A stretch of DNA of 64,000 bases from Psychromonas sp. 14N.309.X.WAT.B.A12 (GTDB taxonomy: Bacteria > Pseudomonadota > Gammaproteobacteria > Enterobacterales > Psychromonadaceae). Position numbers and translations under genes: made by a program. The notes below the pieces were generated by a model, which saw only the letters and a program-made list of their open reading frames with translations, was not told the origin of the DNA and did no database searches. The stretch lies in contig NZ_JAPNXS010000005.1 of assembly GCF_030397575.1 (NCBI RefSeq), positions 62,001 to 126,000 of the forward strand, given 5' to 3'. Below are positions 9,156 through 46,506 of this stretch, one piece after another (within the stretch, counting starts at the first letter, position 1; each line of letters begins with the position of its first letter).

Positions 9156-9187
9156 ATTAAGTCAAATTTAAATCCAATTTTGTACGC

Positions 9188-11188: not shown

Positions 11189-11412
11189 AACCACACTCTT
11201 GTAAAAATGAAACAATATAATGCAACACTGAATGGGTATTAAACAAGTCTTCTAACGAGCAAATTTGTTATTGACAATCAAAAAATAATCATAGCCATCA
11301 CCGTTATTATAAGTAATGATATGGACACTTTATTTATGTCTGCCCTTTTACAATGGGCATAAGTTCACAGTAAATTGTCAATAGGTTGTGTAAACTAAAT
11401 GTCTATTTGTGT

Positions 11413-11574
11413 TAATAAATTATATTAAATAAGTGGTCTAAATTTTGTGTAGGAAAAATGGCTTAGTTTAAGGCGTAATTTTAGTTAAATAGTTGTTCCA
11501 TTGACGAAAATTACAACGAATAAATAAGTTATTTTAACCAGTAAAATAGATCAATTAATTGATGAATTAGTTTA
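11413..11574 (+). repeat. Dispersed intergenic repeat, copy B (eroded ends)
   Basis: The body matches copy A closely (ATTAAATAAGTG, AGGAAAAATGGCTTAGTTT, TAAATAAGTTATTTTAAC, AAATAGATCA), but both ends have decayed. The left end reads GTTAATAAATTAT and the right end GATGAATTAGTTTA. It sits in the 428-bp nudC-rsd gap, just upstream of rsd, so it may lie inside the rsd promoter region or leader. Nothing else is recognised in the gap. Confidence 0.7.
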
Positions 11575-11616
11575 TTAACCTAAGTCATTGATGACGATTC
11601 ACTTACAGGAGGTTTT

Positions 11617-12090: not shown

Positions 12091-12121
12091 TAATGACTGA
12101 GTAACTTCATATAATCTATGG

Positions 12122-12165
12122 GGCATCAATCAAGCTAAAAGCATGCTTTTAGCTTGATTGATGCC
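12122..12165. other. Perfect 44-bp palindrome between rsd and the next gene
   Basis: Twenty bases (GGCATCAATCAAGCTAAAAG) are followed by CATG and then their exact reverse complement. It lies between convergent genes, where a terminator is expected, but neither side has a run of T. It would form a very stable hairpin in RNA from either strand. Confidence 0.85.
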
Positions 12166-12178
12166 AAACTTGAATACT

Positions 12179-12520
12179 TTATAAATAAGGTACTTGAGAA
12201 TCTAAACTGTTTTTAACTAACAGAAAATACTCTTTAATAAATTCAATTTGCTCTTGTGAAGCTTTGTACTCCCAACACTTCCCTAATATTTGCTCAATAT
12301 CTTCTACTAACTTATCCCCTTCAGCCACTACCATTAAACGTGTTTCATTACTTAATTGCGGTTGCTGCTCACAAAAACTCATTAATAGTTGTGATACTTC
12401 GTCTAAAACAATATCTGCAATCACTTCGCCTGTAGCAGGTCTTGAGCTACCTTCAAAGATACTTAAATTGTCAGCAAAGTAACCAATGCATGCATCGTAT
12501 GCATCACTTTTTAATAACAT
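12179..12520 (-). CDS. Small conserved protein resembling DUF3802
   Basis: A 113-aa acidic, helical, cytoplasmic protein with no signal peptide or membrane segment. The pattern (an IADIVLDEVSQLLMSFCEQQP segment in the first half, EDIEQILGKCWEY and QIEFIKEYFLLVKNSLDSQV in the second) resembles the roughly 113-aa DUF3802 proteins of Vibrio and Shewanella, as far as I recall them. The function is unknown. It is convergent with rsd and upstream of the M23 peptidase gene on the same strand, with a 68-bp gap. Confidence 0.65.
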   Translation of the reverse strand: MLLKSDAYDACIGYFADNLSIFEGSSRPATGEVIADIVLDEVSQLLMSFCEQQPQLSNETRLMVVAEGDKLVEDIEQILGKCWEYKASQEQIEFIKEYFLLVKNSLDSQVPYL

Positions 12521-12588
12521 AATGTATGTCTCTATCTAATAATATACTTAATAGCTAATATCACTATTTTAAGCAATATTTGGAATAA

Positions 12589-29508: not shown

Positions 29509-30204
29509 TTAGGAACGAAATAACCGTGTATATTGCGTTTCATGCCAAGCACTGGCCATCGCTAATCGCGGTAAACTTGCTCCAATGTCTGCATCATCAA
29601 TCTGATTTGCAATACTAATAGCAGCAGCTACTTTATCACTTAATTCAAACAGTAAATTTTGTGCCTGTGTTTGACCTAATGGCACCAACTTAGTCGCTGC
29701 AGCCACTTGATTATCTAAATATGTCCAGCAATACCCACTTTGCGCAGAGATTAAATCCAGCTCGCAAAGATAAGCAGCAATCGTAAACACACTCACAAAA
29801 CTACTTTCTGACTGTTTGAATAATTCATCGTATGGCTCACTATCAATACCATCTAATTGCTTTAATAAACGAATTAATGCTTTCCCCATTGCAACATCAG
29901 CAAGGCGTAATTCACTACTTTCACGACAAGCAATGAGGTGCTGATTATGTAATGCAAAGCTGACAAAATCCCCCTCTTTCAATGCTTGATAAAGTCGTTT
30001 TAATAACGCTAAGTCAGTGCGAGCAATCGATTCTTTAAGATTCAACTCAATCCAATCAAAGGTACTTTTTTGATTGTTTACCCAGCCCATTTCCGTTGCG
30101 TACTCCAATCCTTGTGAGAAAGAAAATCCACCGACGGGTAAGTTAGCACTGCATAATTGTAATAGTCGATTGAGCTTAATAGGGGTCGCTATATTAATGT
30201 TCAT
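29509..30204 (-). CDS. ureF: Urease accessory protein UreF
   Basis: UreF links UreG to the UreD-urease complex and acts as a fidelity check during nickel loading. From the ATG at 30204 ([19 protein letters not shown]) the protein is 231 aa, the normal length; the longer frame to 30276 runs into ureE and is not credible. The typical [20 protein letters not shown] (about residues 17-36) and the C-terminal [15 protein letters not shown] are visible. The start codon lies inside the last codons of ureE (11-bp overlap), which indicates translational coupling. Confidence 0.95.
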
Positions 30205-30670
30205 GATGGTGCCCAGCATGAGAATGGCGATGAGCATGCCCACTACCTTTACCATAAGCACCATTTTCAGGTGCAAATACTGCAGGTGTTTTATCGATTA
30301 TTAAGCCATAATTTTCAGCTAGTTCTTCTAATACGTGATCAGGTTTAAAACGTATCCATAACTCACCAACTTGTAATGTCGTATGACGGTTGCCTAAGTG
30401 ATAACAGACTTTACTAAACGTTAGCCAGTCCTTACCAATCGCAGTAGATACGGCTTCGGCTTGCCCTTTCACTTCGATTAATAACCCACATTCTGTTTTT
30501 AGGATTTCGCCCACTAAAAGAGGATGACCGCGATCTACAAAAATACCGATATCTACACCTTTATCTGTGACACCTTTGATGCGTGATTTCTTACGCGTAT
30601 CATGATCCAATGTAATCGAATCATTAATATCATCATGGGTATGATCCAACCTTTCAAATACTTGTAACAT
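30194..30670 (-). CDS. ureE: Urease accessory nickel chaperone UreE
   Basis: UreE delivers nickel to the urease assembly complex. The 158-aa protein has the N-terminal peptide-binding-like domain ([13 protein letters not shown]) and the metal-binding C-terminal domain ([13 protein letters not shown], with the conserved interfacial His). It ends in a histidine-rich tail ([19 protein letters not shown]), as in the Klebsiella protein, suggesting extra nickel storage. It lies 59 bp after ureC. Confidence 0.95.
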
Positions 30671-30729
30671 TGTTTACCATTTTCCTATTATCTTGTTTTT
30701 ATTGTTATTTTTATAACGCACGTAATAAA

Positions 30730-32433
30730 TTAGAACAAGGTGTAACGCTGTGCTAACGGTAACTCCGTCGCAGGGTCACAAGTTAATAGTTCGCCGTTTG
30801 CGCGAACTTCATAAGTTTGCGAGTCAACTTCAATATTCGGCATCCAATCATTATGAACCATGTCTTTTTTACCAATATTACGAGTGTTTTTACACACCCC
30901 CACTAAACGAGTCATCCCTGCTATTTCAGGTACATTTTTATCGATTGCAGCTTGCGATAAAAAAGTCATTGACGTTTTAGCTGCAGCACTACCGAATGAT
31001 CCGAACATTGGACGATAGTAAACAGGCTGAGGTGTTGGAATAGAAGCATTTGCATCGCCCATTGGAGCAGCGGCAATAAAACCAGACTTTATGATCATTG
31101 ATGGTTTAATCCCAAAAAATGCAGGCTTCCATAATACTAAATCAGCCATTTTTCCTACTTCAATAGAGCCAACTTCATGACTAATACCGTGACTAATGGC
31201 TGGATTAATCGTGTATTTGGCGATGTATCGTTTAGCTCGGAAGTTATCGTTTCTCTCTGTATCAGGGGATAATGGACCGCGTTGTTGTTTCATCTTATGT
31301 GCAGTCTGCCAAGTACGCGTGATCATTTCACCAACACGTCCCATCGCTTGAGAATCAGATGAAATCATACTGATAGCCCCTAAATCATGCATGATATCTT
31401 CAGCAGCAATACTCTCTTTACGGATACGTGAATCGGCAAAGGCAATATCTTCTGGAATAGAAGGGTTTAAATGATGACAAACCATCAGCATATCTAAATG
31501 TTCATCAATGGTATTGACTGTATATGGTCTTGTTGGGTTGGTTGATGAAGGTAATACATTGGGCTCACCACAAGCACGAATGATATCAGGTGAATGACCA
31601 CCACCAGCACCTTCTGTATGGTAAGTATGAATAGTGCGCCCTTTAAATGCACCGAGTGTATCTTCTAAAAAACCTGACTCATTTAAAGTGTCAGTATGGA
31701 TAGCAACTTGTACATCGTATCGCTCAGCAACCGATAAACAATTATCAATAGCTGCAGGGGTTGTTCCCCAATCTTCGTGCAGTTTTAACCCACACACTCC
31801 AGCTTCAATTTGTTCTTCAATAGCTTTGGGTAAACTAACGTTTCCTTTCCCTAAAAAACCGAAATTCATTGCAAAGTCATTGGTGGCTTGCAACATTTTA
31901 TGAATATTCCAAGGTCCAGGCGTACAGGTTGTCGCTTTAGTCCCCGTTGCAGGTCCAGTACCACCACCGATCATAGTGGTCACACCTGACATTTGTGCTT
32001 CTTCAATCTGCTGTGGGCATATAAAATGAATATGAGCGTCTATGCCACCAGCCGTTAGAATTTGACCTTCTCCTGCGATGACCTCAGTACCTGCACCTAT
32101 TTCGATATCAATATTATCTTGAATATCAGGGTTACCGGCTTTACCAATAATAGCGATACGTCCATCTTTGATACCAACATCCGCTTTGACAATCCCCCAA
32201 TGATCCAGAATTAATGCATTAGTGATCACTAAATTAACGGTTTCAGAACATGATACTTGGCTTTGACCCATACCATCTCGAATAACTTTACCACCACCAA
32301 AAGTGACCTCTTCGCCATATTCAGTAAAATCTTTTTCTACTTCAATCCACAAGTCAGTATCAGCTAAACGAACGCGGTCACCCACTGTCGGACCAAACAT
32401 ATGCGCATAAGCATGCTTATCAATTGTTGCCAT
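30730..32433 (-). CDS. ureC: Urease alpha subunit
   Basis: The catalytic subunit of urease, a cytoplasmic dinickel enzyme that hydrolyses urea to ammonia and carbamate. At 567 aa it is full length. The nickel ligands and catalytic residues are recognisable by motif: HIHF (two His), the carbamylated Lys and His in [37 protein letters not shown], the flap MVCHHLNP (Cys and His), and the Asp in SSDSQAMGR. Nothing needed for activity is missing. It overlaps nothing; ureB ends 2 bp upstream. Confidence 0.98.
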
Positions 32434-32435
32434 GA

Positions 32436-32765
32436 TTATTTACCTCCCTCTGAGTCGCTTGGAATATCACCTTGAATATCTCCTCGGAAACCAAATACAC
32501 GACGCTTGCCGCGATAAGCAATCAAGGTAACGTCTCTTTTTTGCCCTGGCTCAAAACGTACAGCGGTACTTGAAGTAATATCTAGACGGTAACCTTTGGT
32601 TATATCACGCTCGAAAACTAAGGCTTTATTGACTTCGTAAAAATGGTAATGAGATCCAACTTGGATGGGACGGTCACCGGAGTTAGCAACACTGACGGTT
32701 ATTTTTTCACAACCAACATTTAGCTCTCGAGAGCCACTATCCGTTATAATTTCACCTGGAATCAT
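32436..32765 (-). CDS. ureB: Urease beta subunit
   Basis: Structural beta subunit of the (alpha-beta-gamma) urease trimer. The 109-aa protein begins [18 protein letters not shown] and contains [19 protein letters not shown] (about residues 29-47) and [18 protein letters not shown] (about 60-77), all hallmark sequences. It lies between ureA (13-bp gap) and ureC (2-bp gap), the standard bacterial order. Confidence 0.97.
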
Positions 32766-32778
32766 AAACTTTACTCCA

Positions 32779-33081
32779 TTAAATAATTGGGTTGTGTACC
32801 GTCACCAACTTTGTACCATCGGGGAAAGTCGCTTCTACTTGCACTTCTGGAATCATTTCTGCAATACCATCCATCACTTGATCTCGGGTTAATAGCGTAC
32901 GACCGTAATCCATCATTTCAGCGACAGTTTTACCATCACGCGCACCTTCCATGATCTCCATAGAAATATATGCCATTGCTTCTGGGTAATTAAGTTTTAC
33001 ACCTCGCTTTAAACGACGCTCTGCTAATAACGCAGCAGTAAAAAGCAATAACTTATCTTTTTCTCTTGGTAATAAATCCAT
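32779..33081 (-). CDS. ureA: Urease gamma subunit
   Basis: The smallest urease structural subunit. The 100-aa protein starts [20 protein letters not shown], contains [14 protein letters not shown] (about residues 26-39) and ends with [18 protein letters not shown], matching the family throughout. It lies 12 bp after ureD. Confidence 0.97.
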
Positions 33082-33093
33082 AATAATCTCTTT

Positions 33094-34008
33094 TTATGTA
33101 TGCCAAACTCTAGGTTGATTTGCTGCTTTATTTACTAATATGGGACGTAATATTTCCCATAAGTGTATAAAAAGCTGTTTACATTGTTGTGCGTGAGAAC
33201 CGAGATAACGCATTACTAATAGCCCTTCAATATCGGTAATGCTAATTGTGCTTTGAGCATTCACCTCAATCATTTTTTGGCGTAGCTGCTCAACTAAATC
33301 TGCGCGTTGTTGTTTATCAGTTAGTTGCTTTGGGGCATAAGCTAGAAAGGTCGCAAATACACTATGCCCAGCCAAGCCTGCAGGGTGAGTTAATAATTGG
33401 TTAGCAGGTGATAAAGCGATACGATCATGATAAATCAATTTTCCATCGCAAAATAAACGGTTGAGTTGGCAGTATTTACCCTCAACAAATGGTTGTGCTG
33501 AATCAGGCAGTCCAAGACAGGTTATATCCCAGCCTAAATAAGCACTGCTACTAGTTAGCTCGATATCCACTGTATTAAATCCATCAGCTCCTTCATAGAC
33601 GATGGTTTCTTGCGGAAAATTTTCACACTTAGCATCGGCTTCAATGGTGAAATTTGTCATCTGCGCTTGTTTAGTATCACCAATCTCTAAATTGGTACGA
33701 GCACGATAAAAGCGCCCAGCACCGGGCGTAGTAAATAAGAGATGGGCTTGTTCTTGAATAGTGACATTAATACGCAGTTCATCACCTGAAACAATACCCG
33801 CAGGTGGGTGTAAAAGATAGATATGAGCACAGTCACGCCCTTCAGGGTAAAACGCTTTTTGTACTGATAATGGCCCTTTACGTTGTGTAGCAGTTAATTG
33901 CGTACCCACAGAAGTATGGCTAAACTGCAAAGATAAATGAGCAAGCCACTGATTTTTCAATGGCTTACTCATCCTAGGTTTGATTTCATCAACAACTGTG
34001 TTGGTCAT
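33094..34008 (-). CDS. ureD: Urease accessory protein UreD (UreH)
   Basis: UreD is the scaffold that binds apo-urease and UreF and provides a path for nickel. The 304-aa protein has the family patterns STVG-like SHTSVGTQLTATQRKGPLSV (about residues 31-50), LLHPPAGIVSGDELRI (about 65-80) and the TTPGAGRFYRA segment (about 93-103). The ATG at 34008 has only a distant AAGGA; an internal ATG at residue 13 (after CCTAGG) is a possible alternative. It heads the ure part of the operon, 39 bp after urtE. Confidence 0.95.
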   Translation of the reverse strand: MTNTVVDEIKPRMSKPLKNQWLAHLSLQFSHTSVGTQLTATQRKGPLSVQKAFYPEGRDCAHIYLLHPPAGIVSGDELRINVTIQEQAHLLFTTPGAGRFYRARTNLEIGDTKQAQMTNFTIEADAKCENFPQETIVYEGADGFNTVDIELTSSSAYLGWDITCLGLPDSAQPFVEGKYCQLNRLFCDGKLIYHDRIALSPANQLLTHPAGLAGHSVFATFLAYAPKQLTDKQQRADLVEQLRQKMIEVNAQSTISITDIEGLLVMRYLGSHAQQCKQLFIHLWEILRPILVNKAANQPRVWHT

Positions 34009-34047: not shown

Positions 34048-34743
34048 CTATACCGCTAAGTACTGGCTGACGAGTTGATCATCTAAGGCACTCATCTCCC
34101 CAGAGGCAATAACTTGACCTTTTTCCATGATATGGAAGTTCTCGCCAACGGCGCGAGCAAAAGGTAACTTCTGCTCGACCAAAATAATAGTCATTCCTTG
34201 TTCTTTATTAAGCTTTAATAATACATCTCGAATCAGTTGCACGATATTCGGTTGAATCCCCTCATTCGGCTCATCTAGAATCAAAATATCAGGGTTTAAC
34301 ACCAAAGCACGGCCTATCGCTAATTGCTGTTGTTGCCCACCAGATAAGTCCCCACCACGTCGATGTAGCATCTCTTTTAACACAGGAAAAAGTTTATATA
34401 TATGATTTGGAATGGTTTTACTTTCCTGTCGACTACAATTTAAGCTGATTTTTAAATTTTCTTCAACAGTCAATTGTGGAAAAATATGACGCCCCTGTGG
34501 CACATAACCAACGCCGATTTCAGGACGTTTTTCTACACTACTTTTACTCATATCCTGGTCGTTGATAATTAGCCTTCCCGAGGAGATTGGCAACAGCCCC
34601 ATGATAGTTTTTAATAAGGTAGTTTTACCTACCCCATTACGTCCCATAATGCAGGTGCGCGATCCTTTCTTTATGTTAAGATCCAGATCCCAGAGGATTT
34701 GTGTACCGCCATATTTTTGATTTACTGATGTTAATTCAATCAT
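34048..34743 (-). CDS. urtE: Urea ABC transporter ATPase UrtE
   Basis: A LivF-type ATPase of 231 aa that, with UrtD, powers urea import. Walker A is GRNGVGKTT (about residues 34-42), the signature LSGGQQQQLAIGRAL is near 133, and Walker B LILDEPNEGIQP near 154. The NEGIQP ending separates UrtE from amino-acid LivF proteins. The urtD stop codon is only 1 bp upstream, so the genes are translationally coupled. Confidence 0.95.
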   Translation of the reverse strand: MIELTSVNQKYGGTQILWDLDLNIKKGSRTCIMGRNGVGKTTLLKTIMGLLPISSGRLIINDQDMSKSSVEKRPEIGVGYVPQGRHIFPQLTVEENLKISLNCSRQESKTIPNHIYKLFPVLKEMLHRRGGDLSGGQQQQLAIGRALVLNPDILILDEPNEGIQPNIVQLIRDVLLKLNKEQGMTIILVEQKLPFARAVGENFHIMEKGQVIASGEMSALDDQLVSQYLAV

Positions 34744-34744
34744 A

Positions 34745-35554
34745 TTAGTCTTGCTCCTCGCCTAAGTACACTTCCCTCACTTGTTTATTGGCTTGCACTT
34801 CATCCATTGAACCCTCCGCTAATACTGTACCTTGATGTAAAACTGTTACCTTACGAGCAATAGATCGTACAAAAGCCATATCATGCTCAACGACCACAAC
34901 AGAGTGTTTACCTGCTAACGAGGTTAATAGCTCAGCAGTTCGCTCAGTTTCTTGAGTAGTCATGCCGGTTACTGGCTCATCTACTAGCAACAACCTTGGC
35001 TCAGCAGCTAATAGCATACCTATTTCTAGCCATTGCTTTTGACCATGCGATAAACGCCCTGCAGGATAATATCGCTCGGCTATTAAACCGATGGTTTCTA
35101 ACACTTCATCTATTTTGTTTTTTTGCTCTCCACTCAGCTTATGAAATAAAGAAGTTAAAATACCTTTATCACCAGATAAGCTCAGCTCTAGATTTTCAAA
35201 GACAGTAAGCGCCTCAAATACTGTTGGCTTTTGAAATTTACGGCCAATGCCGGCGCGTGCAATTTCAGATTCATCTAATTCCAGCAAGTCAATTTGCTGA
35301 CCAAAACTAACCTTCCCAGTATCAGGACGTGTTTTTCCGGTGATCACATCCATTAGCGTCGTTTTACCTGCGCCGTTTGCACCAATTAAACAACGTAATT
35401 CACCATCACCTATATACAAATTAAGGTCATTAAGTGCTTTGAAACCATCAAAACTAACACTGACATCTTCTACATATAAAATCATGCCATGGCGTGTATC
35501 GGGATTAAGGTTCTCGGTTGAATATAGCGGCGAACCATGTTTATTAACTATCAT
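34745..35554 (-). CDS. urtD: Urea ABC transporter ATPase UrtD
   Basis: A LivG-type ATPase of 269 aa. Walker A GANGAGKTT lies near residue 58, the signature region is RLSHGQKQWLEIGMLLA (LSHGQ in place of LSGGQ, usual for UrtD), and Walker B is LLLVDEPVTGMT. An internal ATG at about residue 24 (MILYVEDVSVSFDGF) would give a more compact protein, but the ATG at 35554 overlaps the urtC stop by one base and is kept. Urea specificity comes from the gene cluster. Confidence 0.95.
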   Translation of the reverse strand: MIVNKHGSPLYSTENLNPDTRHGMILYVEDVSVSFDGFKALNDLNLYIGDGELRCLIGANGAGKTTLMDVITGKTRPDTGKVSFGQQIDLLELDESEIARAGIGRKFQKPTVFEALTVFENLELSLSGDKGILTSLFHKLSGEQKNKIDEVLETIGLIAERYYPAGRLSHGQKQWLEIGMLLAAEPRLLLVDEPVTGMTTQETERTAELLTSLAGKHSVVVVEHDMAFVRSIARKVTVLHQGTVLAEGSMDEVQANKQVREVYLGEEQD

Positions 35555-36714
35555 TATTTATTCTCCGCAACAGGGGGGGTATTCTCTATATCACTCTGTT
35601 TACCTTGACTAGGAGGATCTAATTTATCCATTAAGTTAGTCACTAAGCCTGCTAAGCCTTTCGGTAATAACAAAGTGACCAACACAAACAAACCACCCAG
35701 TCCAAATAACCAAGCTTCAGGCATAATCGCGGTAAAACGTGTTTTGGCGTAACTCACGACGATTGCGCCAACTAATGCTCCATACAGAGTGCCACGCCCA
35801 CCAATCGCTACCCATATAACAATCTCAATTGAATTAAGTGGCGAGAACTCTCCTGGGTTAATAATGCCAACTTGTGGCACATAAAGAGCACCAGCCACAC
35901 CAGCCAACATGGCCGAGACAACAAAGATCCACACTTTATAATGTTCTGGTTTATAACCTACAAAGCGAACGCGACTTTCCGAATCTCTGATAGCTGTCAC
36001 TACTCGGCCCATTTTAGAGTTAACAATGAAGTGACTAATGCCATAACCGATTGCCAGAACAACAGCAGTAGCTACAAATAAAGCAAGTTTTGTTGTTGGT
36101 GACTGCAATGAGAATCCAAATAGCTCTTTAAAGTCAGTTAGTCCGTTATTACCACCAAAGCCCATTTCATTTCGGAAGAATGAAAGTAATAGCGCATAAG
36201 TCATTGCCTGCGTCATAATCGATAAATACACACCGCTAACTCGTGAACGAAACGCTAATGTACCGAAGATATAAGCTAATAAACCAGGTCCAGCAAACAC
36301 CAGTAATATCATGACTAATGCATTGTCCGAACCAGCCCAATACCATGGTATTTCAGTCCAGTTTAAAAACACCATAAAGTCAGGTAGCTCGGGATTGCCA
36401 TATACACCACGATCACCGATTTGGCGCATCAAGTACATCCCCATCGCATAACCACCTAGGGCAAAGAAGGCGCCATGACCTAAACTTAATATGCCGCAGT
36501 ATCCCCAGACTAGATCAACCGCTAAGGCTAGTAAGGCGTAACATAAATATTTACCCAATAGACTGACCGTATAATCACTCACATGTAAAGCTGAACCTTC
36601 AGCAAAAAAGAGATTACACACAGTTACATAGAGTGTTGAGATAAACAGTATTGCAATCACAACATGCAAACTGCTCATTTTTTTTATCATTGGTGAATTC
36701 AGTAAAGTATCCAT
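35554..36714 (-). CDS. urtC: Urea ABC transporter permease UrtC
   Basis: A 386-aa LivM-type inner-membrane permease with about ten membrane spans. Characteristic segments are VDLVWGYCGILSLGHGAFFALGGYAMGMYLM (about residues 61-91, shown only by its landmarks GYCGILSLGHG), FFRNEMGFGGNNGLTDFK, and GRGTLYGALVGAIVV near 302. The hydrophilic C-terminus is short. The start overlaps the urtB stop by one base. It forms the translocation path together with UrtB. Confidence 0.95.
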   Translation of the reverse strand: MDTLLNSPMIKKMSSLHVVIAILFISTLYVTVCNLFFAEGSALHVSDYTVSLLGKYLCYALLALAVDLVWGYCGILSLGHGAFFALGGYAMGMYLMRQIGDRGVYGNPELPDFMVFLNWTEIPWYWAGSDNALVMILLVFAGPGLLAYIFGTLAFRSRVSGVYLSIMTQAMTYALLLSFFRNEMGFGGNNGLTDFKELFGFSLQSPTTKLALFVATAVVLAIGYGISHFIVNSKMGRVVTAIRDSESRVRFVGYKPEHYKVWIFVVSAMLAGVAGALYVPQVGIINPGEFSPLNSIEIVIWVAIGGRGTLYGALVGAIVVSYAKTRFTAIMPEAWLFGLGGLFVLVTLLLPKGLAGLVTNLMDKLDPPSQGKQSDIENTPPVAENK

Positions 36715-38336
36715 TATTCTGCCGCTCTCCCTTTTTGTGGAAATAGTCCTTTAGGTCGTTTTTGAATAAACAAGACTAGACTGACTAACACAATAATATT
36801 GGCTAATACTGGTCCCATTGATGGTTCCAATATTTTATTAAAAGTACCCATGGTCATCGCTGCCACTAAGGTTCCCCATAAATTCCCCACCCCACCAAAT
36901 ACAACAACAAGGAAAGAATCGATAATATAAGCTTGTCCTAAGTTTGGCCCCACGTTAGTTAACTGGCTTAATGCCACACCAGCGACACCCGCAATTCCTG
37001 AGCCTAAGCCAAAGGTGATCGCATCAACCCACGAACTTTTAACACTTAATGCTCTAGCCATATCTCGATTTTGTGAAACCGCACGAACATGTAAACCTAA
37101 TGAAGAGCGTTTCAAAATCATCAGTAATGAAAAGAACACCATTAGCGAAAAAATAATAATGTATAAACGATTATAGGTAATTGATAAAACTGGATTAATT
37201 TCCAAAGAACCACTCATCCACAAAGGCGCTTCTACCTGGCGATTTAACGGAGAGAAAACCGTTCTAACAAGTTGTTGTAAAATAAGGCTGATACCAAAGG
37301 TCGCTAATAAAGTTTCTAATGGACGACCTTTAAGAAAACGAATAACACCGCGTTCAATTAAAATACCAACAAAGCCCGACACTAAAAACGCAGCGGGTAC
37401 GGCCATTAATAATGAATATTCAATTAAGCTAGGGAAAGTTTGCTGAATCACATAGGTGGTATAAGCCCCTAGCATCATCATTTCACCGTGAGCCATATTG
37501 ATAACACCCATCACCCCAAAGGTGATCGCTAAGCCTATTGCAGCTAATAACAATACTGAACCTAAGCTCAATCCAAAGAACAGATTTTCAACTAACTTAA
37601 AGACACTAATTTGTTGTTCAATATCGTCAATAGCATTACTTAATTCTGCTTTTAACGAACCACCTTGCTGTGATCCTGGTATTTTCTGCAATTGACTGAC
37701 TAAAGCATTTTTAACACTTGGCTCTAAACGGTTTGAAAGTTGTTTAGCTGCAGATAACTTTTCAGCGTCGTTACCGTTCTCTAACTGCTCAACTAGCAAA
37801 ATTGCTGACATTAGGTCTCTTGCTTCACTATCTTGCTCAGTTTTAATCAGTTTATTGACAGCTGTAATAGCAGCTTTATTTGGTTTATCTAACAGTAATT
37901 TTAACGCTGAAATACGCACATCGACTTGATCACTCGTTAAATCTAAATTTGCTAATAGGTCTCGAATCTGGCCACGTAGACGGTTATTGGTTCTTACTTT
38001 TTTAATGGCTGATTTACTGACAGTAGGTAATGCTTCGTTACTCAACACATCAATTAATTGGTACTGGTTGTTAGTATCTTCAGATACTGATACCACTTGT
38101 TTATTGGCTTTTAAGTAATATAGGTCACCTGCCATTAACGGCTCTAAAATAGCACGTACTTGCGGTGCAGATGTGTCGGCAATTTGCTCGATTAAAGACG
38201 ACAGTTTATTTAATTTAGTGGAAGGCAACTGCCCAACCAACGAAATAAGTTCAGATTCACCTTGCACGTCGTCCTCTGCAGCAAATACAGGAAGCGATAA
38301 AACAAAGAAAAAGAGAAAGGGGAATAGGCGCAACAT
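36714..38336 (-). CDS. urtB: Urea ABC transporter permease UrtB (long form)
   Basis: A 540-aa protein. The C-terminal 300 residues are a LivH-type permease (LGLAITFGVMGVINMAHGEMMMLGAY, abbreviated; VVVFGGVGNLWGTLVAA near 480). The N-terminal part starts with a signal sequence (MLRLFPFLFFFVLSLPVFA) followed by about 200 residues of helical repeat-like sequence predicted to lie in the periplasm. This extension is common in proteobacterial UrtB but absent from amino-acid LivH; its role is not known to me. It lies 124 bp after urtA, a gap that may reduce its expression relative to the binding protein. Confidence 0.95.
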   Translation of the reverse strand: MLRLFPFLFFFVLSLPVFAAEDDVQGESELISLVGQLPSTKLNKLSSLIEQIADTSAPQVRAILEPLMAGDLYYLKANKQVVSVSEDTNNQYQLIDVLSNEALPTVSKSAIKKVRTNNRLRGQIRDLLANLDLTSDQVDVRISALKLLLDKPNKAAITAVNKLIKTEQDSEARDLMSAILLVEQLENGNDAEKLSAAKQLSNRLEPSVKNALVSQLQKIPGSQQGGSLKAELSNAIDDIEQQISVFKLVENLFFGLSLGSVLLLAAIGLAITFGVMGVINMAHGEMMMLGAYTTYVIQQTFPSLIEYSLLMAVPAAFLVSGFVGILIERGVIRFLKGRPLETLLATFGISLILQQLVRTVFSPLNRQVEAPLWMSGSLEINPVLSITYNRLYIIIFSLMVFFSLLMILKRSSLGLHVRAVSQNRDMARALSVKSSWVDAITFGLGSGIAGVAGVALSQLTNVGPNLGQAYIIDSFLVVVFGGVGNLWGTLVAAMTMGTFNKILEPSMGPVLANIIVLVSLVLFIQKRPKGLFPQKGRAAE

Positions 38337-38460
38337 GGACTGTTCCTTAGAATAATATATTCAGTTCATTAAATGGGAGGAACATCTCCCATTGGGTGTT
38401 TAATGACAAGCAAAGGAAAAACGACTAAGCGTTAATTCACTTTGCTAGAAAAGGTTATAT

Positions 38461-39744
38461 TTAGAATTGTTGACCAGAACATTTTGCAGTAGTGATATCA
38501 AAGTTGCCGCACTTGATTGGTGAAGTCCAATCAGCAACTAAGTTTTTAGAGCTTGGTAAAAAGTCTGACCATGCATCACCGATTACTGTATCAGGCGTTT
38601 CCCAAACTACTTCAAATTGACCATCTTCTTGAATCTCACCAATTAATACTGGTTTAGATAGATGATGATTTGAGTTCATTACAGCCGTACCACCCGTTAA
38701 GTTAGGAACAGCGATACCGATCATTGCTTGCTCTACCGCATCAACGTCAGTTGTACCGGCTTTCTCAACAGCTTTAACCCACATTTTGAAACCAATGTAA
38801 GTGGCTTCCATTGGATCATTTGTTACACGCTTATCATCGCCAATGTATTTTTTCCATTTTGCGATAAATTCAGCATTCTCTTCAGTATCAACACTTTGGA
38901 AGTAGTTCCATGCCGCTAAGTGACCAACCAGTGGTTTTGTATCAAAACCAGATAACTCTTCTTCACCAACAGAGAATGCGATAACTGGAATATCTTCAGC
39001 TGAGATACCTTGGTTACCTAGCTCTTTGTAGAATGGGATGTTTGCATCACCGTTTACAGTAGAGATAACGGCAGTTTGTTTACCTTCTGAGCCAAAGCGT
39101 TTAACGTCAGAAACGATACTTTGCCAATCCGAGTGACCAAATGGCGTGTAGTTAATCATGATATCTTCAGCTTTAACGCCATTTGCCATTAAATAAGCTT
39201 CTAATATTTTATTAGTTGTACGCGGGTAAACGTAGTCAGTACCAAGTAAAACGAAACGTTCAGCGCCGATATCATTCATTAAGTAATCAACTGCTGGAAT
39301 AGCTTGTTGGTTAGGCGCAGCACCTGTGTAGAAAACATTTTTAGATGACTCTTCACCTTCATACTGTACTGGGTAAAACATTAAGCCATTTAGCTCTTCT
39401 AATACTGGCAATACAGATTTACGTGAAACTGAAGTCCAGCTACCAAAGATAACATCCACTTTATCTTTCGCTAATAACTCACGTCCTTTTTCCGCAAATA
39501 GAGGCCAATTTGAAGCTGGGTCAACAACCACAGGTTCAATTTTTTTGCCCAATAGACCACCGTTTGCATTTTGGTCTTCAATCATCATCAATACTGTATC
39601 TTTCAGTGTCGTTTCACTGATCGCCATCGTGCCTGATAAAGAATGTAAGACACCAACTTTAATAGTGTCTGCAGCATACGCAAAGTTAGTCATTAAACCT
39701 GTTGCAACAATCGAACTTGCAACTATTAGCTTCTTCAGTTTCAT
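38461..39744 (-). CDS. urtA: Urea-binding periplasmic protein UrtA
   Basis: A 427-aa family-4 binding protein (Leu/Ile/Val type) that captures urea in the periplasm. A signal peptide (MKLKKLIVASSIVATGLMTNFAYA) precedes IKVGVLHSLSGTMAISETTLKD, the typical UrtA start. Further UrtA-like segments are IFGSWTSVSRKSVLPVLEE and LMFYPVQYEGEESSKNVFYTG. A GGAAAGGAA ribosome binding site precedes the ATG. It is the first gene of the roughly 11-kb urt-ure operon, whose promoter must lie in the 284-bp gap shared with the divergent sensor kinase. Confidence 0.97.
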   Translation of the reverse strand: MKLKKLIVASSIVATGLMTNFAYAADTIKVGVLHSLSGTMAISETTLKDTVLMMIEDQNANGGLLGKKIEPVVVDPASNWPLFAEKGRELLAKDKVDVIFGSWTSVSRKSVLPVLEELNGLMFYPVQYEGEESSKNVFYTGAAPNQQAIPAVDYLMNDIGAERFVLLGTDYVYPRTTNKILEAYLMANGVKAEDIMINYTPFGHSDWQSIVSDVKRFGSEGKQTAVISTVNGDANIPFYKELGNQGISAEDIPVIAFSVGEEELSGFDTKPLVGHLAAWNYFQSVDTEENAEFIAKWKKYIGDDKRVTNDPMEATYIGFKMWVKAVEKAGTTDVDAVEQAMIGIAVPNLTGGTAVMNSNHHLSKPVLIGEIQEDGQFEVVWETPDTVIGDAWSDFLPSSKNLVADWTSPIKCGNFDITTAKCSGQQF

Positions 39745-40028
39745 AGGTAATTCCTTTCCTTTTAGTCTTTAGTGATTAGTATTTGTACTTGGCAAATGTA
39801 TCAATCACGCCCTTTTCCAAGTGAGGTTAGTATCTAGGAATTGTGGCAAGGAAAGAATGCGTAGAAGCGCGCAATAGACTACGCAATTATGCGCATATAG
39901 AAAAAATATAAGGTCAAGTATGATACGCGCGAGCTTATACCAGTAACAACGTTTCATAACAAAGATGGCAAAGAGGTTAAGATACGCTAGGATGGCACGT
40001 AGGATGGTTAAAGGAATAATCAATTACC
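39745..40028. promoter_or_regulatory. Shared control region of the urea operon and the sensor kinase
   Basis: A divergent 284-bp gap. An inverted repeat TGCGTAG (39858-39864) and CTACGCA (39879-39885), followed by TTATGCGCATA, is the most operator-like element and lies midway. No convincing sigma-54 promoter (GG-N10-GC) was found on the urtA side: GTGGCAAGGAAAGAATGC has the wrong spacing. The element could be bound by the adjacent LuxR-type response regulator. Confidence 0.4.
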
Positions 40029-43000
40029 ATGGAATCAAACCAAAAAATACTGAAAGCCCGTCGTACCTATAATAAACTCGTCGCTAATGAGATGATGGAA
40101 GACTTTGCCTTGCGTTTTACTTCTAAGCGCGCAAGAAAATGGTCTTTGAATCGTGTCTCTATGACTGCGTTGGGGATTGTGTCATTTTTAGTATTAGAAG
40201 CGATTGGTGGAGCTATTACTCTAGAATTTGGCTTTACCAATGCAGCTTGGGCAATTCTTGCGGTAACCTTAGTAGTGTTTATCACCGGCCTCCCAATTAG
40301 CTATTACGCCGCTAAATATGGTGTCGATATTGATTTACTTAGCCGTGGCGCTGGGTTTGGTTATATTGGTTCCAGTATCGCTTCGCTAATTTATGCCTCC
40401 TTCACGTTTATCTTTTTTGCCCTTGAAGCCGCAATCATGGCGATGGCCTTAAAGATTCTATTTGCAGTGCCTTTACCGATTGGGTATATCCTCAGTACCA
40501 TTATCATCATCCCTCTAGTGACCCATGGCATTACCTACATTAGTCGATTTCAAGTTTGGTCATCACCTATTTGGGTTGCTTTACAACTATTGCCACTTTT
40601 TTTTGTTTTTACTCACAGTGATAGTCAATTTAAGGAGTGGATTACTTTTACTGGTAATGCAGGGGTGCATGGTAGCGAGTTTAATCTATTACTGTTTGGC
40701 GGCGCCTCTGCCGTATTATTGGCTTTGGTGGCACAAATCGGCGAACAGGTAGATTTTTTACGCTTTTTACCTGAAAAACCAAAGAAAAAGTCTGGTCGCT
40801 GGTGGATAGCGTTATTAGTGGGGGGGCCAGGTTGGATGCTATTCGGAGCATTGAAACTATTTTTAGGATCTTTTCTCGCTTACTTTGCACTACAACAAGG
40901 TATACCAGCAAACCTAGCCAGTGATCCTGCTCATATGTATCAATTAGCTTATAGTTATGTCTTTGATAACATTACTGTTATCTCTGTCGTTGCCTGCGGC
41001 TTTGTCATTTTATCGCAATTAAAAATTAACGTAGCCAATGCTTATGCAGGCTCGTTAGCTTGGTCTAACTTTTTCTCTCGCGTTACTCATAACCATCCAG
41101 GCCGAGTTGTATGGATGGTATTTAATGTGGCCATCGCTCTATTATTAATGGAACTCGGTATCTACCAGACGATTGCCAGTATGTTATCGGTTTATTCGGT
41201 TTTAGTATTAGCTTGGTTAAGTTCTGTTGTAGCTGATTTAATCATTAACAAGCCTTTAGGGATCAGCCCTAAACATATTGAATTTAAACGCTCACATCTA
41301 TTCGATATTAACCCTGTTGGTGTTGGCTCTATGCTATTGGCATCTATAGCTGGTTTCACCGCTCATATGGGATTTTATGGTGAGACAGCGGAAGCATTAG
41401 CCTCCTTTATAGCCTGTTTTCTACCTTTTATTACCGTGCCATTAATTGCTTGGTTAACCCAAGGTAAATATTACTTAGCCAATAATCAAGAAATTGAAAT
41501 TAAGCAATTTTGCGAGTGCCACATTTGTGAGAATAGCTTTGATCAAGAAGATATGACCTTCTGTCCAGCTTACGGTAAAGCTATTTGCTCTTTATGTTGC
41601 AGCCTAGATGTACGCTGTGCTGACCAATGTCGTCCTCATGCAACTATTTCACAACAGGCACACGATTTCTTTACTCGATTTGTCAGTGAAAAGGCCTTAA
41701 AAGTACTGACGACACCATTAACTCAGTTTATTGCATTAACCTTAGTATTAAGCCTGATAAGTGCCGCTATTTTATTTTTGGTGTATCTGCAGGTGCCCTT
41801 AGAAGGTGCGCAGGTAAAACAACTATTTGCAAATACCCTAATTAAAACATTTTTTCTGTTAATCATTATTATCGGCATTATTAGTTGGTTATTTATTCTC
41901 GCCCGGGATGGTAATCAAAATGCACTAAAAGAGCTGCGTTCACAAACCAAAGCGCTTGCCAAAGAAATTGATGCCCATGAAACCACCTCTTTTGCATTGC
42001 AGACTGCCAAAGAAGTGGCTGAATCAGCTAATCAGGCTAAAAGTCGTTATTTAGCAGCGTTAAGCCATGAACTTCGCACCCCCTTAAATGTACTGCTAGG
42101 TTATGCTCAGCTACTGCTGCGCGATCAAGCTTTACCGCCTAAGCAGCAAGAAACTATTGCAATTATTCGCCGTAACGGCCAACACCTCGCAGACTTAATC
42201 GAGAGCTTATTAGAGATATCTAAGATTGAAGCAGGTCGAGTAACACTTCAGCGCGATGAATTTAATCTAAAAGCCATCTTGCAGCAATTAGTTGATATGT
42301 TTCAGATGCAAGCAAGCAAAAAAGGCATTAAGTTTAATTATATCAGTAGCCCAAACTTACCTGATTATGTGGCGACGGATAAACAACGTTTTAGACAAAT
42401 TTTGATTAACCTGATCTCCAATGCAATTAAATTTACCGCACAAGGTTCGGTAACTTTTAAAGTCACTTACCGCAGTGAGGTAGCGAACTTTAGTGTGATT
42501 GATACTGGTGCCGGTATTGCGCTTCATGACCAAGAGATCATCTTTAAACCCTTTGAGCAAATTCGCCATTCACAATCTCAATCAACTGGTGGAACTGGAT
42601 TAGGCTTAACTATTTCACGCTCTCTTGCTGAATTAATGGGAGGTGAGATAACCTTAAACAGTCAACTCGGTCAAGGCAGCACTTTTAATTTTCGTTTAAT
42701 GTTATTCAAACTACATAAAGATCCAAAAGAGCCTGAATTAACCAAGTCAGAAGCGATTGGTTATGATGGCCCAATACAATCTATCCTCGTTGTTGATGAC
42801 AATCTCAATCAGCGAGAGTTAATGACAGATCTATTATCACCTATTGGTTTTAACATACTATTAGCAGAAGACGCAGAGCAGGGCTATCAACAACTACAAC
42901 AGCAAAAAGTTGATCTGATTTTAATGGATGTGCAAATGCCTAATATCAATGGATGGCAAATGGTCAAAACGCTACGTGAACAACATTACCATATGCCAGT

Positions 43001-43394
43001 ATTAATGCTGTCAGCGAATGCACGAGATGCAGAGTACAATCAACAGGCAGAGGGATACCATGACGGCTACATTGCCAAACCACTCAATTTAGATGCATTA
43101 TTAGGCAAAATAGCACAGTTGTTAGATTTACAATGGCAATACAAACGGACTGATAATGCTTTTAAAGATAAAGATAATCAAGCCCACAAACCTAAGTTAG
43201 GGGTTGAACAATATGAAGCCTTAATTGCAATGGCTGAAATTGGTTATCTATCTGGTTTTAAACATAAATTTGATGAAATAAAAGATGAGTACCGTTACCC
43301 AGCAGGAAGTGAATCACAAATTCTTGAATATGTTGAAGTGTGTAACTTCCCTAAAATAATTGAATATTTAAACGAGTTAAATGATGGATCATAA
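40029..43394 (+). CDS. Transporter-fused hybrid sensor histidine kinase
   Basis: A 1121-aa inner-membrane sensor. Residues about 35-480 form about twelve membrane spans resembling the NCS1 (purine-cytosine permease) fold, with GLPISYYAAKYGVDIDLLSRG and GFGYIGSS near residues 90-120. A cysteine cluster at about 495-538 (CECHICEN ... FCPAYGKAICSLCCSLDVRC) looks like a metal-binding zinc-ribbon. Two further spans follow (about 565-640). The kinase core has HisKA with SHELRTP (His-680), N-box LISNAIKF, DTGAGIA and GGTGLGLTIS. A C-terminal receiver has its acceptor Asp at residue 967 (LMDVQMP). It is divergent from urtA and overlaps its probable response regulator, so urea or a related compound is the likely stimulus (inference). 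Confidence 0.88.
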   Translation: MESNQKILKARRTYNKLVANEMMEDFALRFTSKRARKWSLNRVSMTALGIVSFLVLEAIGGAITLEFGFTNAAWAILAVTLVVFITGLPISYYAAKYGVDIDLLSRGAGFGYIGSSIASLIYASFTFIFFALEAAIMAMALKILFAVPLPIGYILSTIIIIPLVTHGITYISRFQVWSSPIWVALQLLPLFFVFTHSDSQFKEWITFTGNAGVHGSEFNLLLFGGASAVLLALVAQIGEQVDFLRFLPEKPKKKSGRWWIALLVGGPGWMLFGALKLFLGSFLAYFALQQGIPANLASDPAHMYQLAYSYVFDNITVISVVACGFVILSQLKINVANAYAGSLAWSNFFSRVTHNHPGRVVWMVFNVAIALLLMELGIYQTIASMLSVYSVLVLAWLSSVVADLIINKPLGISPKHIEFKRSHLFDINPVGVGSMLLASIAGFTAHMGFYGETAEALASFIACFLPFITVPLIAWLTQGKYYLANNQEIEIKQFCECHICENSFDQEDMTFCPAYGKAICSLCCSLDVRCADQCRPHATISQQAHDFFTRFVSEKALKVLTTPLTQFIALTLVLSLISAAILFLVYLQVPLEGAQVKQLFANTLIKTFFLLIIIIGIISWLFILARDGNQNALKELRSQTKALAKEIDAHETTSFALQTAKEVAESANQAKSRYLAALSHELRTPLNVLLGYAQLLLRDQALPPKQQETIAIIRRNGQHLADLIESLLEISKIEAGRVTLQRDEFNLKAILQQLVDMFQMQASKKGIKFNYISSPNLPDYVATDKQRFRQILINLISNAIKFTAQGSVTFKVTYRSEVANFSVIDTGAGIALHDQEIIFKPFEQIRHSQSQSTGGTGLGLTISRSLAELMGGEITLNSQLGQGSTFNFRLMLFKLHKDPKEPELTKSEAIGYDGPIQSILVVDDNLNQRELMTDLLSPIGFNILLAEDAEQGYQQLQQQKVDLILMDVQMPNINGWQMVKTLREQHYHMPVLMLSANARDAEYNQQAEGYHDGYIAKPLNLDALLGKIAQLLDLQWQYKRTDNAFKDKDNQAHKPKLGVEQYEALIAMAEIGYLSGFKHKFDEIKDEYRYPAGSESQILEYVEVCNFPKIIEYLNELNDGS

Positions 43395-44271
43395 TAGTAG
43401 TGATGTGGTGTTGGTGGTTGATGACTCACCAGAATCATTAGGCATGCTCAATGTTGCTTTAAATAGCCAAGGCTATACGGCACTGGTTGCATTAAGTGGC
43501 CAACAAGCACTTGCAATAGCAGAGAAAGTACCACCTGATGTTGTATTGTTAGATGCAATGATGCCTGAAATGGATGGCTTTGAAACGTGTCGCCGTTTAA
43601 AAATATTATTACCTAATACTCCTATTATTTTTATGACAGGCTTAACTGATGTAGAAGATATTGTGAAAGGCATTGAAGCTGGTGGAGTGGATTACGTAAC
43701 TAAACCTATCTCTCCCGATGAAGTTATTGTGCGTATAAAACGCCATATTGAAACGGCAAAATTAGCACTCAGCGCACAGGACGCATTAGATCATGCAGGC
43801 AAGACAGTGTTCTGTGTTAGCCCTGTAGGTCGTTTATCTTGGGCGACCCCCCATGTGCATGAGTTAATCGATCAAGTATCACCAGGTGATGCTAGCCCTT
43901 GGGCAACTCTTGCGCCATTAATAGAAAAATGGCTAGCGAATGATACAAAGACTGAATTAGTAATTAATTGTTTTGTTAACAAAATCAGTATTGCCTACGA
44001 ACGTCAACAACAACAGATGCACTTGCTGAGAATTGTTCAAAATAAAACACAAAAATCAGCAACAGATTTACAACAAAAGTTACCTATTACAAAACGCGAG
44101 TCTGAGGTTTTATATTGGGTTTCCTATGGTAAGACTAGCTGGGAAATATCTCAAATATTAACCATGAGCCCGCGTACCGTAAATAAACATCTGGAGCAAA
44201 TATACAAGAAATTAGGCGTTGATAATCGCACTTCTGCAGCTGCAATTTCAATCAGAATACTAGAAGGCTAG
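43381..44271 (+). CDS. LuxR-family response regulator
   Basis: A 296-aa two-domain regulator. The N-terminal receiver (about residues 8-125) has VVDDSPES, the phosphate-accepting Asp-58 in VVLLDAMMPEMDG, MTGLTD, and the conserved Lys in YVTKPIS. The C-terminal LuxR-type helix-turn-helix (about 232-292) reads TKRESEVLYWVSYGKTSWEI ... SPRTVNKHLEQIYKKLGV. The start overlaps the end of the kinase gene by 14 bp, so the two are co-translated and very probably form a phosphorelay. The divergent urt-ure operon is the natural target. The linker of about 100 residues has no recognised domain. Confidence 0.9.
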   Translation: MMDHNSSDVVLVVDDSPESLGMLNVALNSQGYTALVALSGQQALAIAEKVPPDVVLLDAMMPEMDGFETCRRLKILLPNTPIIFMTGLTDVEDIVKGIEAGGVDYVTKPISPDEVIVRIKRHIETAKLALSAQDALDHAGKTVFCVSPVGRLSWATPHVHELIDQVSPGDASPWATLAPLIEKWLANDTKTELVINCFVNKISIAYERQQQQMHLLRIVQNKTQKSATDLQQKLPITKRESEVLYWVSYGKTSWEISQILTMSPRTVNKHLEQIYKKLGVDNRTSAAAISIRILEG

Positions 44272-44421: not shown

Positions 44422-46506
44422 ATGAAATCAATAAATAAATACGAGCTTCTAGAAAAAGCAATTCTGAATGATCCATTACATCAATTGTTTGATGCAGTGG
44501 ATGCTATTTCTGTTCAGGGCTATAACGAAGATCGTCGAGTTATTTATTGGAATAGAGGCAGTGAAATAATTTATGGTTACACCGAAGAAGAAGCAATTGG
44601 ACAAAAAATTGAAGACCTGATTATACCTAAGGATATGTGTGAATTTGTCATCAGTGCACATCGTGATTGGGTTCAAAAAGGCATAGAGATCCCTGCATCA
44701 GAAATAACCCTTCATGACAAAGATGGTGCTGATGTTGAAGTGTTCTCTAGCCATGTTATGTTTACAAATCAATACAATAAAAAACAAATGTACTGTGTTG
44801 ATATTAATATGACAGACACCAAAAATGCCCAGGCTCAAGTGTCCTTTAAAGAACACATGTTACAAACCATTTTTGAAGCAACGCCAGATCTTTTTTTCTT
44901 AATAGAAAAAGATAGCACCATCACCGACTATTATGCTGGTAGCAGTAAAAACCTGTATACGCCCCCTTCAAAATTTATTGGTTATAAAATAAGTGAGGTA
45001 TTACCTGCCGACGTTGCTAAGAAATATAATACATATATAAACAAAGTGATTAAAGAAGCAGCTCCATTCACTTTTGAATATGAACTTATGTTGCCTCACG
45101 GGTTAACCTATTTCGAAGCGCGTATTAATTATTTGCCTGAATACCAACAAATATTAACGATCGTACGTGATATTACTGAACAACATAGATCGTCACAAAC
45201 CATTAAACAACATGCGTACTATGACACTCTCACAGCCTTACCTAATCGCTTTTTATCGTTAGACAGATTATCACAAATGCTCAATGAAGCAGATCGTAAC
45301 AATGAAAATGTAACGGTCTGCTTCCTAGACTTAGATGACTTTAAAAAAGTAAATGATTCTTTAGGTCATGAAATAGGCGATAAGCTATTAATTGAAGCAG
45401 CTAAACGCTTAAAAAAAGCAACCCGTAAAACAGACACTGTAGGTAGATTAGGCGGAGATGAATTTATTTTATTATCGCCAGGTTTACACGATGAAATGAG
45501 TATCAAAGTCGTTGCACAGAACTTACTTGAGGTATTCCGTAAGCCCTTCCACATCGATGGTCGAGAATTAATCGTTACTTTAAGCCTGGGTGTCGCTGTT
45601 TCACCAGATAATGGCACTACAGTTTCAGATCTTTTACGAAATGCTGATACCGCGATGTATCAAGCTAAAACGTTAGGTCGAAACGCCTACTCTTTTTTCA
45701 CAAAAGAGATGAATACAGCCATGATACGCAGGTTTGAAGTGGAAGAGCAGATGCGCAATGCCCTTGAACGTGACGAGTTCGAGGTATTTTATCAACCTCA
45801 ATTCGACTCAAGGACACAAAACGTTATTGGTGCAGAAGCTTTATTACGCTGGCATAACCCCGCTTTAGGAAATATTTTTCCTGACGAATTTATCCCTATT
45901 GCAGAACAAACAGGTCTAATCGTTCCAATTGGCCAGTATGTGATCAACGAATCCCTTAGCTTTTTAAGCTTATGGCAAACTCAGCAAAACAATGATTTTG
46001 TAATGGCAGTCAACTTATCTCCTCGTCAATTTCGAGATAAAAAACTTCTTAAAGTGATTAAAGAAGCACTTAAAAAAGCCAACCTTAGTCCTGACCATTT
46101 AGAATTAGAAATAACGGAGGGTGTATTAATGACAGGCCAGTCTTACATTACAGAGGCCTTGATTGAACTACAAGAATTAGGTGTGAAGTTATCCATGGAT
46201 GACTTTGGTACTGGTTATTCATCACTCAGTTATTTACGACAATATCATTTCGATGTGCTTAAAGTTGATAGAAGTTTTGTGAATGGTATTACCATTAACA
46301 AAGAAGACCGAGACTTGGTTAAAGCGAGCATTGCGATAGCTCATAGCTTGGGTTTAAAAGTAGTCGCCGAAGGCGTAGAAATCAGTGAACAGCTCAATAT
46401 TTTAAATGATTTAGGTTGTGACTACGTACAAGGTTATTACTTTAGTAAACCAATGCCGGCTCAGAAATTCTTAGATTATACAGAGAATTACCAGAGAGAA
46501 ACTTAA
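44422..46506 (+). CDS. PAS-PAS-GGDEF-EAL cyclic-di-GMP enzyme
   Basis: A 694-aa cytoplasmic protein. Two PAS domains (about residues 15-130 and 140-255) are followed by a GGDEF domain with intact GRLGGDEF (344-348 for GGDEF) and an upstream RKTD I-site five residues before it. An EAL domain has all its landmarks: GAEALLRW (about 470), NLSPRQF, ELEITEG, DDFGTGYSSLSYL, KVDRSFV and EGVE. Both diguanylate cyclase and phosphodiesterase activities are possible. Lacking membrane spans, it senses an internal signal such as redox, oxygen or a ligand. It is a separate transcription unit 150 bp after the response regulator. Confidence 0.93.
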   Translation: MKSINKYELLEKAILNDPLHQLFDAVDAISVQGYNEDRRVIYWNRGSEIIYGYTEEEAIGQKIEDLIIPKDMCEFVISAHRDWVQKGIEIPASEITLHDKDGADVEVFSSHVMFTNQYNKKQMYCVDINMTDTKNAQAQVSFKEHMLQTIFEATPDLFFLIEKDSTITDYYAGSSKNLYTPPSKFIGYKISEVLPADVAKKYNTYINKVIKEAAPFTFEYELMLPHGLTYFEARINYLPEYQQILTIVRDITEQHRSSQTIKQHAYYDTLTALPNRFLSLDRLSQMLNEADRNNENVTVCFLDLDDFKKVNDSLGHEIGDKLLIEAAKRLKKATRKTDTVGRLGGDEFILLSPGLHDEMSIKVVAQNLLEVFRKPFHIDGRELIVTLSLGVAVSPDNGTTVSDLLRNADTAMYQAKTLGRNAYSFFTKEMNTAMIRRFEVEEQMRNALERDEFEVFYQPQFDSRTQNVIGAEALLRWHNPALGNIFPDEFIPIAEQTGLIVPIGQYVINESLSFLSLWQTQQNNDFVMAVNLSPRQFRDKKLLKVIKEALKKANLSPDHLELEITEGVLMTGQSYITEALIELQELGVKLSMDDFGTGYSSLSYLRQYHFDVLKVDRSFVNGITINKEDRDLVKASIAIAHSLGLKVVAEGVEISEQLNILNDLGCDYVQGYYFSKPMPAQKFLDYTENYQRET

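Follow-up and report, generated by a model that had tools for sequence, protein, structure and literature searches.

What does a hybrid sensor histidine kinase sense when its membrane part resembles a transporter and its gene lies back to back with a urea operon? The question arises at a locus of Psychromonas sp. 14N.309.X.WAT.B.A12, within a 64,000-nucleotide stretch of contig NZ_JAPNXS010000005.1 (positions 62,001 to 126,000), hereafter the window. An earlier note, made from the letters alone, had proposed that an NCS1-type permease domain, a cysteine cluster and a kinase core are combined in one protein which, together with a LuxR-type response regulator, switches on urea uptake. We conclude, with a probability of about 0.62, that the pair is a two-component system in which a receptor derived from an NCS1 carrier governs a urea or amide operon. 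The genomic comparisons described below lend good support both to the NCS1 origin and to the predicted control of urea or amide operons. For a wider proposal we would give even odds: that the kinases form an undescribed, widespread class in which an NCS1 domain with an invariant Lys at the sodium site has become a carboxamide or urea receptor, an eight-Cys, two-span module is the transducer, the operator is conserved, and amide sensing gave rise to urea sensing about four times. The parts of the kinase and its regulator are as follows:

40029..43394, plus strand: hybrid sensor histidine kinase of 1121 amino acids (open reading frame; HisKA, HATPase_c and Response_reg by Pfam).
40086..41468, plus strand: predicted NCS1-carrier-derived sensor domain, residues ~20-480, with 12 hydropathy peaks (hhalign, hydropathy).
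41517..41630, plus strand: eight-Cys module, residues 497-534, C-x2-C-x11-C-x7-C-x2-C-C-x5-C-x3-C (alignment conservation).
41724..41906, plus strand: two additional membrane spans with hydropathy centres at residues 576 and 616 (hydropathy).
42036..43112, plus strand: kinase core and receiver, HisKA with His680, HATPase, and Asp967 in LILMDVQMP (Pfam; motif positions).
43381..44271, plus strand: response regulator of 296 amino acids, with a receiver (Asp58 in VLLDAMMP) and a LuxR/GerE DNA-binding domain (Pfam; motif position).

The Pfam domains of the kinase (HisKA at residues 670-736, HATPase at 784-891 and a receiver at 919-1028) and of its partner (receiver and GerE) are those of a hybrid kinase paired with a LuxR-type regulator. 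As the earlier note had it, the H-box lies at His680, within the motif SHELRTP, and the two genes overlap by 14 bp. Hydropathy averaged over 158 aligned rows showed 12 peaks ahead of residue 489 and a further two beyond it, at 576 and 616, in line with the predicted twelve or so spans followed by two more. The kinase protein and the gene order recur across many species, beyond chance.

The identity of the sensor domain was missed by single-sequence and one-sided profile searches and was found by profile-profile comparison. The query profile comprised residues 1-488 of 44 kinase members; carrier profiles were built from both strands and their members kept by length (25 of 30 for NCS1, 24 of 25 for SSF, 25 of 25 for NCS2 and 24 of 25 for SNF). 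Residues 20-469 matched the NCS1 profile of 25 proteins with an hhalign probability of 99.25 (E 5.7e-20, 410 columns). The SLC5 domain of the SLC5/STAC kinases was not recognized, the probability being 1.56 against the 24 SSF proteins; those for NCS2 (25 proteins) and SNF (24) were 0.33 and 0.26. Other alignments repeated the NCS1 match at 98.9 and, when anchored on Mhp1, at 98.5, or 99.3 once the stand-alone relative L063 was added. The curated Pfam family PF02133 matched none of the 44 members at E 10, and the cytosine-permease model weakly matched five (best 1.1e-5). The assignment of the membrane domain to NCS1 rather than SLC5, as first proposed, is thus well supported at the level of profiles.

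L063, a protein of 497 amino acids from another genome, is 27% identical to the window sensor. With PF02133 it gives a match at 1.8e-9 and with the NCS1 model one at 3.7e-16 (under the model cut-off); as a query in 398 genomes it retrieved mainly NCS1 kinases. Its neighbours are a carbon-nitrogen hydrolase and a UrtA-like protein that scores under the UrtA model cut-off. The same grouping of stand-alone carrier, hydrolase and UrtA-like binding protein was observed in two genomes (L063:3735-8135 and L300 ~8900-13300) and is a candidate amide or nitrile uptake group.

Alignment to Mhp1 (posteriors 0.92-0.99) pairs Glu133 of the kinase with Gln121, Phe129 with Trp117, and Lys332 and Ile333 with Ser312 and Thr313, these last two at a posterior of 0.99. 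We take Ser312 and Thr313 to belong to the sodium site of Mhp1 and Gln121 to its substrate site. The sodium-site residues are therefore not kept in the kinase. This site varies within the NCS1 family, since CodB has Thr and Thr at these positions and the own-genome carrier L031 has Gly and Ile. Ten residues, Glu133, Gln175, Gln236, Glu239, Gln240, Asp242, Gln330, Lys332, Asn334 and Asn337, are invariant in all 158 rows; of these, Lys332 and Glu133 suggest a sodium-independent receptor or binding site.

These residues bear on the strongest alternative, a working transceptor whose NCS1 domain has remained a carrier for urea or an amide while the kinase reads the transport cycle, as in CbrA. The invariance of polar pocket-side positions would suit such a protein, as would L063, which has Glu, Arg and Ile at Mhp1 positions 121, 312 and 313 and lies within an amide-hydrolase gene group; CbrA itself is reported as a histidine transporter (PMC7096432). 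However, Lys332 and Ile333 replace the aligned sodium-site residues, genes next to the kinase already provide high-affinity uptake through an ABC system, and the Amt-type kinase Ks-Amt5 is reported to bind without translocating (PMC5764959). A transceptor is unlikely, and we prefer a carrier-derived receptor.

What such a receptor would recognize is indicated by its genomic neighbours. In the window these are:

34048..39744, minus strand: urtABCDE, the proposed target operon, divergent from the kinase (open reading frames; UrtA model).
29509..34008, minus strand: urease genes ureD, A, B, C, E and F, downstream of urtE (open reading frames).

The kinase gene is indeed divergent from the urea operon: urtA (38461..39744, minus strand) scored 576 bits with the UrtA model (cut-off 493) and is followed by urtB-E and the ure genes. 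The names urtB-E are putative and follow gene order; those of the ure genes, likewise putative, were assigned from their sequences.

The linkage recurred in three sets of genomes, which share members so that their counts are not additive. Matches were found in 33 of the 295 genomes drawn from the order: besides the window's own genome, there were 30 other kinase loci, one stand-alone protein (L063) and one kinase that lacks the carrier domain (L064); urtA-E-like genes were divergent in 29 of the 30 loci, the other being at a contig start. The draw from the phylum gave matches at 61 places in 55 of 398 genomes, and removal of four partial or stand-alone matches left 57 kinases. Urea (urt/ure) or fmdA genes flanked 55 of these, and the other two were at contig ends. 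Within ~9 kb, the 52 newly taken loci comprised 36 with fmdA, nine with ureC, five with a urea-type urtA and the two contig ends; the remaining five kinases, including that of the window, were linked. A scan of named genomes gave at least 583 relatives, of which the nearest 80, a biased set, were kept; 73 of these were linked and three were at contig edges. At the fmd loci examined (L053, L058 and L060), the formamidase was above cut-off (775 bits, cut-off 500), and the UrtA-like proteins exceeded the UrtA cut-off.

Outside the window clade, most relatives adjoin fmdA rather than urease. The input is for this reason better stated as urea and small amides, which are the likely ligand class. The link with urea genes, as first proposed, is upheld, and it extends to amide genes. 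Among the nearest 80 relatives, the kinase of L089 faces an aliphatic amidase (L089:8644-9684; 718 bits, cut-off 427) rather than urt or fmd genes.

The neighbours also bear on a second alternative, in which the input of the NCS1 domain is not urea or an amide but nitrogen status, a breakdown product or a nucleobase, and the linkage merely identifies the genes controlled. The structurally known NCS1 carriers take cytosine and hydantoins, and the pocket-side residues are alike in the urea and formamidase clades, with mild shifts only, such as at positions 323 and 397. By contrast, the linkage spans urease, the formamidase FmdA and aliphatic amidase, whose shared chemistry is the carboxamide. 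Sensing of another ligand is distinctly unlikely, and urea and small amides remain our preferred input.

The history of the two linkages was examined on a FastTree tree of 157 sensors from 162 loci, one having been dropped for length and four as duplicates. Of its rows, 101 were formamidase-type, 46 urea-type and 10 unlabelled. The linkage type requires four changes on this tree versus 39.7 in shuffles, and the starred branches alone force at least three. Based on its outermost position, the midpoint root and the long branches L060, L062, L297 and L298, the formamidase linkage may be the older. L297 and L298 (kinase at ~8.2-10.9 kb) carry the same sensor module on a shorter kinase that lacks a receiver and lies beside a receiver-kinase and fmdA.

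A palindrome with the consensus TACGTCA-WW-TGACGTA lies inside the divergent gap singled out by the earlier note (39745-40028), a stretch conserved among 12 same-genus genomes. The window has two candidate sites:

39880..39895, palindromic, no strand assigned: main candidate operator, TACGCAATTATGCGCA (top matrix match in 64 kb; exact site once in the genome).
39858..39873, palindromic, no strand assigned: weaker second candidate site, TGCGTAGAAGCGCGCA, exactly 22 bp nearer urtA (score 5.4).

The pattern TACG-N8-CGTA, allowing one mismatch, occurred in 48 of 55 chosen representative gaps (5.0 expected); the next best half-site spacing, 10, occurred in 23. We built a matrix from 33 formamidase gaps and used a score threshold of 12. 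Within the window it ranked 39879-39896 first (13.8; runner-up 10.0). The threshold was reached by 65 of 68 held-out formamidase gaps and by 8 of 405 shuffled gaps; many held-out gaps are near relatives of the training gaps, but 31 of the 34 whose 12-mer overlap with any training gap is <10% also reached it. When 41 loci were scanned whole, 27 had a match of 12 or more. The exact window site occurs once in the genome, and a further 24 occurrences with three mismatches are at control level (25 vs 27). Ten of 52 gaps, including six Psychromonas-like ones, have a second site scoring 5 or more at the 22-bp spacing.

The matrix was also applied to the regions directly upstream of urtA. In kinase-bearing loci, 25 of 42 reached 12, or 24 of 40 distinct regions, since L292 and L305 represent a single site and L052 and L094 come from the same genome; the L302 stretch covers the wrong side of the kinase and contains no urtA. 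In 14 of the 17 misses the gap is 1.2-1.7 kb long and in many cases holds a porin-like gene; the site lies within 400 bp of the kinase in 14 of the 14 scored. As to the other three, L067 was unscored, the L304 site precedes the first open reading frame of the operon, and L039 scores 10.1. Among the 37 kinase-negative genomes with urtA, 34 were taken (omitting G144, G255 and G267), and none of their upstream regions reached 12, one scoring 10.0. A rank test gave p = 8.5e-6, without correction for kinship. In L127, L275 and L285, where urtA lies away from the kinase, the site remains with urtA. The palindrome thus goes with the target operon.

Two further observations concern this site. A porin-like gene lies between urtA and the kinase in L045 (6721-7659) and similarly in L066, L067, L069, L094 and L099, and the operator precedes it. 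Of the second urtA copies in kinase-bearing genomes, one of six has a site: in L353 (G175) an operator scoring 21.0 is located ~138 bp upstream of a second, urea-type urtA, and the kinase of that genome is split.

The palindrome might instead be owned by another regulator, for example a general nitrogen regulator, with the kinase pair controlling other genes. The urtA of L353, lying apart from its split kinase, carries a site, and 14 of the 41 scanned loci have none, as this explanation would allow. Nevertheless, the absence of sites from all 34 kinase-negative regions, compared with 25 of 42 before urtA and all 14 scored long-gap loci, and the single exact copy in the window's genome make another owner very unlikely. 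We favour the regulator encoded beside the kinase as the probable binder.

Between the sensor and the kinase core lies the Cys cluster, to which the earlier note had assigned eleven Cys in residues 495-538. The count there is nine; eleven is the total over residues 1-700. Cys497, 500, 512, 520, 523, 524, 530 and 534 are conserved in 157 of the 158 rows, the remaining row having a gap, and Cys495, the ninth of the cluster, is not conserved. A search of 398 genomes for the module and the two spans gave 59 matches, 57 of them in NCS1 kinases; the others were a kinase without a carrier domain (G121) and a weak partial match (G006). The combination is almost confined to NCS1 kinases. A Pfam scan of the module found nothing above chance, and comparison with zinc proteins gave similarity no better than chance (best, CRIPT). 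Urease is a nickel enzyme, and the earlier note had suggested a nickel input through the cluster; we set this role aside because formamidase-linked kinases keep the same module equally. In L064, a 618-amino-acid kinase (7857-9713) keeps the spans and the last part of the Cys module, lacks the carrier domain and has its regulator relative encoded on the opposite strand.

That the module is the main input, for redox or a metal, with the carrier domain mostly a membrane anchor, is highly improbable: its eight Cys are nearly always conserved, but the carrier domain is conserved at least equally, the linked operons presumably need different metals or none known in common, and charge distribution, from a simple hydropathy count only, places the module on the kinase side.

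For the carrier-derived receptor, we infer the following route. The ligand, urea here and a small amide (formamide, for instance) in most relatives, would bind directly in the carrier fold. The resulting conformational change would be relayed to the kinase core by the eight-Cys module, presumably cytoplasmic, and the two additional spans, altering the phosphorylation of His680. In turn, the adjacent LuxR-type regulator would recognize the palindrome between the divergent genes and probably activate, rather than repress, the urea uptake and urease operon, perhaps along with its own gene. The Hpt domain of a multi-step phosphorelay kinase was not detected in the kinase or the regulator at E 1 by Pfam; elsewhere in the genome was not searched.

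Several results weigh against this reading. Mhp1 Trp220 and Asn318 gave no alignment to the kinase sensor, and a comparison of the aligned rows revealed no convergent pocket residue that distinguishes the urea-linked from the formamidase-linked clades. Among the nearest 80 relatives, L120, L122 and L132 are without urea or amide genes within ~10 kb, L120 by tblastn only. The 14 whole-scanned loci without a site of 12 or more include L122, L132, L297 and L298; the top match of L040 is inside the kinase gene, and that of L103 is away from urea or amide genes. Finally, the degenerate consensus shows no enrichment in the window, with 2 occurrences against 3.19 expected. At the sequence level, the membrane domain did not prove to belong to another carrier family, nor did the homologues lack a link to urea or nitrogen genes, most adjoining urea or amide genes. 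Taken as a whole, the original observation is partly confirmed, and its interpretation is partly supported.

Sensor kinases with SLC5 and Amt domains have already been described (PMC7096432, PMC5764959, PMC13022988, PMC8534201, PMC6368324); we found no NCS1-type sensor kinase described in the open-licence papers searched. In the SLC5/STAC kinases CbrA, CrbS and RpuS, a sodium-symporter-type carrier is likewise N-terminal to a histidine kinase in nutrient control (PMC7096432, PMC5715377, PMC9100948, PMC13022988). They differ in that the window carrier is NCS1 (SLC5 profile 1.6), the predicted targets are urea or amide operons, and their STAC appears replaced by the eight-Cys module and two spans, no STAC model having been scanned by name. 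Ks-Amt5 also has a nitrogen carrier turned receptor before a histidine kinase, but this is of the Amt family with ammonium as ligand, and the accessible portion of the paper names no Cys module (PMC5764959). Mhp1 and CodB are related in sequence to the window domain across ~400 residues by profile; the window domain, however, is fused to a kinase, has Lys/Ile for Mhp1 Ser312/Thr313 and has no PF02133 match. In Ectopseudomonas guguanensis G3, a hybrid kinase and a LuxR regulator adjoin a second urtABCDE set, with fmdA at a neighbouring tag; the part of that report available calls the kinase merely a hybrid sensor and mentions no carrier domain, Cys module or operator, a likeness by description (PMC13296017).

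An NCS1 receptor kinase, if true, would add a third carrier family beside SLC5 and Amt, and the transition from carrier to receptor could be tested with its stand-alone relative. Many proteobacteria would then have a sensor devoted to the use of urea and formamide, together with a defined site on the DNA, and the system would offer a first component for biosensors of urea or amides.

Two minor observations concern the genes themselves. A GGDEF/EAL-like gene (44422-46506) follows the regulator in the window and occupies the same place in L033; it was rejected as a conserved partner, as matches elsewhere are distant or weak and in few loci. In L041 (2130-5503) and L061 (2137-5504) the kinase is encoded in two separate frames, whether through decay or through assembly error.

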